A stretch of DNA of 8,761 bases, taken from NCBI GenBank assembly GCA_003697105.1, contig RFFQ01000158.1:1-8761 (forward strand), given 5' to 3'. The notes beneath the pieces were generated by a model. That model was not told the DNA's origin, did no database searches, and saw only the letters and a program-made list of their open reading frames with translations. The position numbers and the translations under genes are program-made. This stretch comes from Gemmatimonadota bacterium. Its GTDB lineage: Bacteria; 4572-55; J002. This document shows, piece after piece, positions 4,036-6,238 of this stretch; position 1 is the stretch's first letter, and each line of letters begins with the position of its first letter.

Positions 4036-5160
4036 TTAACGGGTCAACAAGGTGATGTCATCCCCATTGCGATATAGGGACGGCAGAAGATAGACATCTC
4101 CCTTCTGCCGGAGGTGGTCCAAAAGGTGATTGATGGTCAATCCCTGTGTTAGCTGCTGGTAAAAGGCTTCAAAAAATGTCATCTTGGCGGAATTTCGTAG
4201 CGCATAAGGTATGGCAATGACGGCGGGGACACCGGCACTGATCAACCGTGAACCAATGCAACCAAACGGTTCATTGACGGGTTCAACCCGTTGGGGAGTT
4301 GTGAGGATCGTCAATGCCACTCGGTGGCGGTAGAGCATTTGCCCCAGCAATTTTGCCGAAAGCCGGTGACTAGAACCATCGCGTTTTTCCAGCACAACAT
4401 ACGCCATCCGTACCGGATCGATCACCATGCCTTTAAGAATTTGGTCGCGGTAGGCATGGTACGGATGATGATTTTCAATAATGCTACCTTCCCGATCATC
4501 CCGGTCATAATAGCCCGGACCATCAAAATGAAAAATGTCAACCGCGGGTAAATTCCGGTTATCCAGCCGGTCAACCAGTGCCTCAAACGTAGGGGATTCC
4601 AATATTTCCACCGTAAGACCCGGTCGTGAAAGAGTCTCCTTAAAAGTAGTCAGATTGAGCGGCATTTCTGGATACGGTACATCGTGGGGACGGCTCATCA
4701 TTACCAGCACATGGCGAGTTGAGCGGCGGGGAATATAAAATGCTTTTTGGTCGGGGGTAAGACCTACGTAGGCCCGCTGGATCGAAATCGGGGGAGTTTG
4801 TTGGGCTAAAAACGTATCATTTGCCGTTAGATCGGTCAAGAGTTCCCAAGGCAAGCTTAAAATTTCCGGGTGATCGGAAGCAATTATCAGCCGGCGGTCT
4901 TCGGTTGGGGTTTTAAGAAAGTGTAAAAAGAGGTCGTGGGCGGTGGATTCCAAAAAAACGGACTGAGCTAAACGGGTGCCCCACTGGACAAGTTGGTTGG
5001 TATCAAACGGAGGGGATGCCGTGAAAAATTGGTACATCGCCCGTTTTTCGTCCACAGGAAAGGGGTCGGTAAATCCTAAACTCACCGGGGATTGGTGGGA
5101 ACCAGCACGGAGAATAACCTGCGTGGGTTCAGGAAACGTTAATCGGAATTCCAAACTCAT
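4036..5160 (-). CDS. CHAT-domain-like protein lacking the catalytic His/Cys
   Basis: This 374-residue protein has the layout of a CHAT domain (caspase-fold peptidase family). LPWELL at 103-108 precedes the core, followed by an RRSTRHVLVMMSRP beta strand, HFDGPG at 211-216, and the C-terminal helix signature SAGVPAVIAIPYALRNSAKMTFFEAFYQQLTQG (~308-340). In active CHAT peptidases the middle motif is usually HFxGHG and a later strand ends in NACxS. Here the second histidine is P215, and the cysteine strand reads LTILTTPQRV (283-292) with no cysteine. Cysteine 301 is nearby but out of register. The catalytic dyad therefore seems lost. No TPR repeats, signal peptide or membrane segment are evident. 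The start is supported by GGAG at 5166-5169, 5 nt upstream. It begins 12 nt after the M48 gene ends. The role is unknown; a pseudo-protease acting as sensor or partner of the M48 enzyme is inference. Confidence 0.75.
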   Translation of the reverse strand: MSLEFRLTFPEPTQVILRAGSHQSPVSLGFTDPFPVDEKRAMYQFFTASPPFDTNQLVQWGTRLAQSVFLESTAHDLFLHFLKTPTEDRRLIIASDHPEILSLPWELLTDLTANDTFLAQQTPPISIQRAYVGLTPDQKAFYIPRRSTRHVLVMMSRPHDVPYPEMPLNLTTFKETLSRPGLTVEILESPTFEALVDRLDNRNLPAVDIFHFDGPGYYDRDDREGSIIENHHPYHAYRDQILKGMVIDPVRMAYVVLEKRDGSSHRLSAKLLGQMLYRHRVALTILTTPQRVEPVNEPFGCIGSRLISAGVPAVIAIPYALRNSAKMTFFEAFYQQLTQGLTINHLLDHLRQKGDVYLLPSLYRNGDDITLLTR

Positions 5161-5172
5161 AATGACTCCACG

Positions 5173-6090
5173 TTAGATGGCGATAATTTTTGCCACGTGT
5201 TCATCTAATTTGGTCATGGACATTCCCCCGGTGGATTCCATACCCAGTACCCGTTGTTGGTAATATTTGGATTTTGCAAAAAGTTGTAGGGCTTTGACTC
5301 GCTTGGGTAGAAATGGGTGTGTTTGTGTCAGTTCGGCAAATTTACCGATGGTTCCGCGCAGTTCGTCCAACTGTTTCAGATACTCATCCACATTGACCTG
5401 CTCATATAAATTTTGCGAACCCAATGCTAATTTGACTAAAGTACGCGTTGCGATAGTCTCATCTTGAGCGCAAATAAGACCGGCACGATCAGCGGTAATT
5501 TCAGACTTCCGGATCCAGTCCAGTAACATCATGCGTAGGGGTTGCGCCAACCACGCTATCAGCATTGCCGCTCCAGAAGCAAGAAACTGTGCGACGGTAT
5601 GATACAGGACATGCCCGTTAGCAATATGCCCGCACTCATGTCCAATGACGCTTTTAAGCTCTTCCCGGCTGAGATGATCCACCGTTGCCGAATGGATGAT
5701 GATGATCGAATCATCTTCCAACCCCAACGTCATGGCATTTAGATACGGGTTTTGAATGACATACATGGGGGGCAGTACCAGATGCAGTTCTTCGGCACAT
5801 TCCATCCCGATTTGGTACAAATTAGAGAATTGCCGGGGAGTCACCTTTACGGCGTGTCCGAGAAGTTCCCCGCGCCAACTCTCCTTCCAGAAGCGAACGA
5901 GGGCGGAAATCGTAAGATTCAGGGGCTTAAGCCGTTGGAGGGTACGGAGGGCATCTTGATCAGGGCGGTACACATAGTCACCGGAGGGCGCATCCTGCTG
6001 CTTCTGATGGCGATACGTCGAAAAGTCATCCGGTGTGCCGGTATTCGCTTTCATTTCTCGAACATAATTATTGAAGCTGAGATCAACCAT
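5173..6090 (-). CDS. M48 family zinc metallopeptidase
   Basis: This 305-residue protein is a predicted zinc endopeptidase of family M48 (HtpX/Ste24-like). The zinc-binding and catalytic HExxH motif is HECGH at 151-155, and the third ligand is E197 in EITAD (197-201), both in the expected positions. Between them lies a hydrophobic stretch (~166-190) that could be a membrane-associated segment or buried helices. No signal peptide is present at the N-terminus, whose first ~60 residues are polar. LGSQNLYEQ and THPFLPKRVKAL in the C-terminal half are typical of this soluble M48 subgroup. Its AGGGG Shine-Dalgarno (6099-6103) sits 8 nt before the ATG, supporting this start. It is the first gene of the four-gene cluster and follows the tRNA-Pro terminator. 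No convincing promoter fits in the ~20 nt between them, so transcription may depend on readthrough. The substrate is unknown. Confidence 0.92.
   Translation of the reverse strand: MVDLSFNNYVREMKANTGTPDDFSTYRHQKQQDAPSGDYVYRPDQDALRTLQRLKPLNLTISALVRFWKESWRGELLGHAVKVTPRQFSNLYQIGMECAEELHLVLPPMYVIQNPYLNAMTLGLEDDSIIIIHSATVDHLSREELKSVIGHECGHIANGHVLYHTVAQFLASGAAMLIAWLAQPLRMMLLDWIRKSEITADRAGLICAQDETIATRTLVKLALGSQNLYEQVNVDEYLKQLDELRGTIGKFAELTQTHPFLPKRVKALQLFAKSKYYQQRVLGMESTGGMSMTKLDEHVAKIIAI

Positions 6091-6161: not shown

Positions 6162-6238
<77 letters not shown>

Follow-up and report, generated by a model that had tools for sequence, protein, structure and literature searches.

A stand-alone CHAT-fold protein lacking its catalytic dyad, encoded beside an intact M48 peptidase in a Gemmatimonadota bacterium

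The SAVED-CHAT protease carries a SAVED sensor domain together with a catalytic dyad, while among the metallopeptidases the mitochondrial M48 enzyme OMA1 cleaves OPA1, a member of the dynamin family. Other caspase-like domains act as binding modules, one case being the caspase-like domain of Raptor, which shows no activity and serves to recruit substrates (PMC5205667, PMC6325617), although it retains its catalytic residues (PMC5205667) and is therefore an imperfect parallel to a CHAT domain that has lost them. In the VMAP-type conflict systems, about 70% of the caspase domains in effector position are inactive, and a dominant-negative or peptide-binding role has been proposed for them (Kaur et al. 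2020, PMC7159879).

Here, we describe a small CHAT-like protein that belongs with these already known inactive caspase-like domains, and ask what its place next to an M48 peptidase gene means. Both genes lie on a contig of 8761 bp, analysed whole and referred to below as the window, which is one contig (C36) of a 4.18-Mb genome that is 96.9% complete. An assembly chimera or a contaminant contig is ruled out, since no ligA other than that of the window was found in the genome and the tetranucleotide profile of the window correlates with those of other contigs at 0.84–0.92.

Loss of the catalytic dyad in a stand-alone CHAT protein

The minus-strand frame at 4036–5160 encodes a stand-alone protein of 374 aa that belongs by homology to the CHAT domain family (PF12770; 39.7 bits against a curated Pfam cut-off of 24) and carries the motifs LPWELL, HFDGPG and a C-terminal signature (GVPAVIAIPYALRNSAKMTFFEAFYQQL), all of which had been picked out in the original prediction. 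When aligned with 40 homologues, encoded on plasmids, on two viral contigs or in one of a set of genomes, it has Pro215 (4516–4518, minus strand) in place of the catalytic His of HxxGHG, reading HFDGPG for HFDGHG, and Pro289 (4294–4296, minus strand) in place of the catalytic Cys of [NSD]AC, reading TTPQR for NACQS, with no other cysteine aligned there. Both catalytic residues are kept in 37 of these homologues, the remaining three being dead as well. Of the 40 positions at which 75% or more of the 37 active homologues agree, taken here as conserved, the protein retains 31, including W105-E106, R129, H211, E258, Y334 and R351, and differs at 215, 288 and 289 in the active site and at six other columns. 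As judged from this alignment, the fold is held and the active site lost, because 31 of the 40 conserved positions are retained and both catalytic residues are proline.

The predicted structure is of low confidence (AlphaFold2, mean pLDDT 58.9, pTM 0.56, three-sequence alignment); scans of viral contigs yielded only two usable homologues, so that the alignment was shallow and the model weak. A phmmer search of the PDB with the protein gave no meaningful match, and Foldseek on the low-confidence model returned TM-scores of 0.25–0.3. Clearer results came from VIA-align with residues 137–368, which, for this same low-confidence model, placed SAVED-CHAT first (8tl0; Z 14.6 over 175 residues), followed by DdvA (8rot) and Raptor (5wbk), each with Z 12.1, the TPR-CHAT of Craspase (7y85; Z 10.0) and caspases at about 9. 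While too coarse for the atomic detail of the groove, the model supports a caspase/CHAT alpha/beta fold. Alignment, conserved columns and fold comparison together bear out the original prediction of a catalytically dead CHAT fold in which the second His of HFxGHG is proline and the NACxS cysteine is absent.

A chance or decayed open reading frame is ruled out by the Pfam score and by codon use, which is like that of pilB and ligA and scores better than all of 200 synonymous randomisations. That the gene has native codon use and a frame open over 374 codons, at only about 27% identity to the nearest homologues, points to purifying selection, a reading drawn from codon use and frame for a protein whose homologues are too distant for dN/dS, and suggests that the fold may be under selection without catalysis. 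The protein also forms the longest branch on the CHAT tree, at 2.2 changes per site, which could instead mean relaxed constraint. A single-sequence search with it over a collection of genome contigs found no relative and, as it is the sole member of its subfamily in its genome, a role as regulator of an active paralogue of that subfamily was rejected.

Dead CHAT domains recur, as far as alignment can tell. The three further homologues that lack both catalytic residues (L146, L152 and L162) and the window protein appear on the tree as four separate losses; the first of these is a single domain within a multi-CHAT protein, the second a 463-aa open reading frame with HFDIPY and HTHQT in place of the catalytic motifs, a loss of another kind than in the window protein. 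By eye, the small dead CHAT gene of L152 (L152:1-2396, G116 contig C338) lies 107 nt 3' of a CPBP-type intramembrane protease-like gene, a single case (n=1) of a dead CHAT adjoining another membrane protease. The genome of the window itself encodes two other CHAT proteins. One is a 2770-aa PD40-TPR protein, a predicted lipoprotein (L039:7042-15354, G000 contig C165), with two CHAT domains, both apparently without catalytic His and Cys by inspection; the other is a 1806-aa TPR-CHAT protein on C170, distant from the window protein and with its dyad intact. CHAT homologues occur mostly in open frames of at least 440 aa, the exceptions being fragments and one intact protein of about 360 aa (L230), so that the stand-alone form is itself uncommon.

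These features are probably best explained by a non-catalytic binding protein of CHAT fold, encoded in an ordinary packed operon where its link to M48 is incidental. The ancestor would have been an active CHAT domain, of the type that mostly occurs fused to long C-terminal regions, and would have lost its fusion partner as well as both catalytic residues; the resulting pseudo-protease, if it works at all, may use the former substrate groove to bind a protein or peptide without cutting it. A small stand-alone dead CHAT is a handy subject for studying what the CHAT fold does without catalysis.

The long branch can also be read together with the company the homologues keep. Most are long fusions, in open frames of 460 to about 2000 aa, some are found on conjugative cyanobacterial plasmids, and inactive effector domains are known in conflict systems (PMC7159879), all of which would fit an origin from a mobile conflict (defence) system, the gene being what remains of an effector domain that has lost its fusion partner and catalysis and that either drifts or persists as a decoy. 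We regard this as unlikely, given an intact frame with native codon use and retained conserved positions, an 8.8-kb contig on which no conflict genes were found, and a PADLOC match that is weak and partial (SAVED_CHAT, 19.6 bits, residues 296–346 only).

The gene run and its M48 peptidase

Four minus-strand genes follow one another in the window, namely M48 (6090–5173), the CHAT-like gene (5160–4036), ligA (4004–2016; Pfam DNA_ligase_aden, E 3.5e-95) and a gene for a serine hydrolase of beta-lactamase fold (1989–931; Pfam Beta-lactamase, E 5.1e-32), separated by gaps of 12, 31 and 26 nt. Between M48 and the tRNA-Pro(CGG) gene at 6162–6238, a terminator-like hairpin with a T-run (6142–6115, minus strand) sets the run apart from the tRNA gene. 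The 12-nt gap (5161–5172, minus strand) holds a Shine-Dalgarno-like GGAG before the CHAT ATG (AACGTGGAGTCATTATG), confirming both the spacing and the ribosome binding site originally noted. We infer that the run is co-transcribed, with the CHAT protein probably translated from its own Shine-Dalgarno site within it. Elsewhere in the window, positions 2–799 encode a truncated protein whose Ig repeats are HYDIN/ASH-like and which has a dockerin-like stretch (DVNGDGQVDIDDVQ) at its C terminus, and GATTCGGTAGGATACCCC is present twice at the contig end (8620–8637 and 8744–8761), a repeat that may explain the assembly break there.

The first gene of the run encodes an M48 zinc metallopeptidase of 305 aa (5173–6090, minus strand; Pfam Peptidase_M48, 97.6 bits against a cut-off of 20.3) whose active-site residues are intact, as had been claimed. 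In an alignment with ten relatives, H151, E152, G154 and H155 of its zinc motif HECGH (residues 151–155; 5626–5640, minus strand) are invariant, as is Glu197 (5500–5502, minus strand), the glutamate of WxRxxExTxDRA at the position of the third zinc ligand. With both HExxH and the downstream Glu ligand, the protein is a member of peptidase family M48; it is not an HtpX equivalog, its best score being 53.5 bits against an NCBIfam cut-off of 369. The nearest solved folds to its model (pLDDT 79.7) are ZMPSTE24 and BepA.

An intact peptidase encoded on the same strand, 12 nt from a CHAT gene with its own Shine-Dalgarno site, invites the reading of the original prediction, in which the dead CHAT would be a sensor, presenting partner or inhibitor. 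It would then be a dedicated regulator, added in this lineage, that binds either substrates or the peptidase, as inactive caspase-like domains such as that of Raptor act as binding modules elsewhere. Short gaps are, however, the norm in this genome, with 14 of 37 co-directional gene pairs on sampled contigs at 12 nt or less and 26 of 37 at 31 nt or less; a distance of 12 nt therefore does not speak for a pair, and ligA is nearly as close to the CHAT gene as M48 is. The adjacency itself is real, then, while what had seemed a special pair belongs to a run of four genes with ordinary gaps.

Nor does the pair recur. A search of 80 M48 loci, with flanks of up to 10 kb, found no CHAT homologue, and neither did a CHAT profile search of the same 80 loci and 21 further M48 neighbourhoods. 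Comparing the coordinates of the two genes by eye across 28 genomes that carry CHAT, we found a Pfam M48 and a CHAT of this type 10 kb or less apart at the window alone and in 0 of the 27 others, the next nearest distance, in two genomes (G337 and G048), being about 20 kb. Among the papers searched, none treats CHAT together with M48. CHAT homologues are thus never adjacent to M48 in everything searched, the outcome that the original prediction had named as a refutation, which argues against pairing and, together with an ordinary gap and an M48 clade that has another conserved neighbour (see below), makes a dedicated regulator distinctly unlikely. The genome collections searched held no close relative with both genes, one other genome of the same class or phylum (G001) being without either, and for this reason a lineage-specific link in one genome is possible. 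A functional role with M48, for which the evidence is adjacency, is likewise possible, and co-transcription with M48, as a possible functional link, counts against the reading of a binding protein with an incidental neighbour. We nevertheless consider it most likely that the adjacency is incidental, the place beside M48 reflecting ordinary operon packing.

M48 peptidases with dynamin-like GTPases, and the remaining alternatives

The nearest relatives of the window M48 are from Myxococcota, mostly with 41–46% identity over the full length (30% for L059), and one cyanobacterial relative has 34%. In the tree, the window M48 falls inside a dynamin-linked M48 clade with 100/100 support. A dynamin-like GTPase gene, assigned by Pfam Dynamin_N, lies directly 3' of M48 on the same strand in all 11 clade loci checked (L048–L056, L059 and L197, from Myxococcota and one cyanobacterium, counted as ten loci and G403); the two genes overlap by 1–4 nt in five of these loci, and a second, TPR-bearing dynamin then follows in several. 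At the window, the gene 3' of M48 encodes CHAT and not a dynamin-like GTPase, and relatives of both clade GTPases are encoded away from M48 on C43 (578 aa) and C10 (941 aa) of the genome. The M48 and GTPase genes of this lineage therefore lie apart, and the CHAT gene takes the place 3' of M48. Most likely, M48 is part of a separate module that has the dynamin-like GTPase as its conserved neighbour.

An FHA-domain gene is found 5' of M48 at L049:8121-9968 (Pfam), and apparently also at L051:8115-9401 and L124:299-1387, the last in a Clostridiales MAG that has GTPase-like genes 3' of M48 as well, which suggests an FHA-M48-dynamin cluster in two phyla. Among the papers searched, none describes an operon that joins dynamin to an M48 peptidase. 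The OMA1–OPA1 relationship would be a suggestive parallel to the M48-dynamin gene pair, as a likeness of kinds that implies no homology between the pairs. We consider this gene pair a firmer lead than that of CHAT and M48, and one that deserves its own study.

One further proposal would join the two neighbours, with the pseudo-CHAT as an adaptor that chooses substrates for an M48 peptidase otherwise working with dynamin-like GTPases, in the same phylum. Its chances seem slim to us; if true, a bacterial pseudo-caspase would be coupled to a metallopeptidase as its substrate receptor.

That the CHAT-like protein is still active through other residues, such as C301 with H211 or the inserted histidines 231, 232 and 235, is highly improbable: Cys301 (4258–4260, minus strand) is its sole cysteine and the insert at residues 220–250 is His-rich, but C301 is rejected as a replacement nucleophile by the alignment, where it sits 12 positions past the catalytic column among small residues of the homologues and not in the active site, where the original prediction had looked for it as a counter-sign, the model places it within a predicted helix (298–308) and not at the catalytic strand end, and the insert has a pLDDT under 50.

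Comparison with described systems

The long fused CHAT proteins of bacteria, such as the TPR repeat-containing BAY35406.1 from Nostoc carneum plasmid2, align over the same domain extent at 22–29% identity and share with the window protein the LPWELL, HFDG, GVxAVIA and RxxxLPxLY positions. They carry long C-terminal regions and nearly always keep the dyad, whereas the window protein stands alone and has lost both His and Cys. SAVED-CHAT, the best match in fold, differs in a similar way, the window protein having neither a SAVED match in Pfam nor the dyad. In the VMAP/MoxR-vWA conflict systems, a caspase-like fold has likewise lost catalysis and has been given a proposed peptide-binding or dominant-negative role (PMC7159879); there, however, the inactive domains form part of vWA fusion proteins with MoxR alongside, while the window contig is without MoxR or vWA genes, which, as it spans 8761 bp only, may lie nearby.

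The N-terminal caspase-like domain of Raptor, also matched in fold, offers a non-catalytic substrate-binding role (PMC6325617), but is eukaryotic, forms part of a 150-kDa protein and has conserved catalytic residues (PMC5205667). For the peptidase, the closest described counterparts are the Myxococcota M48 proteins of L048–L055, L059 and L197, encoded 5' of a dynamin-like GTPase, which share a clade and an identical active site with the window M48; the window differs in having a dead CHAT as the next gene, with the relatives of the GTPases on other contigs.
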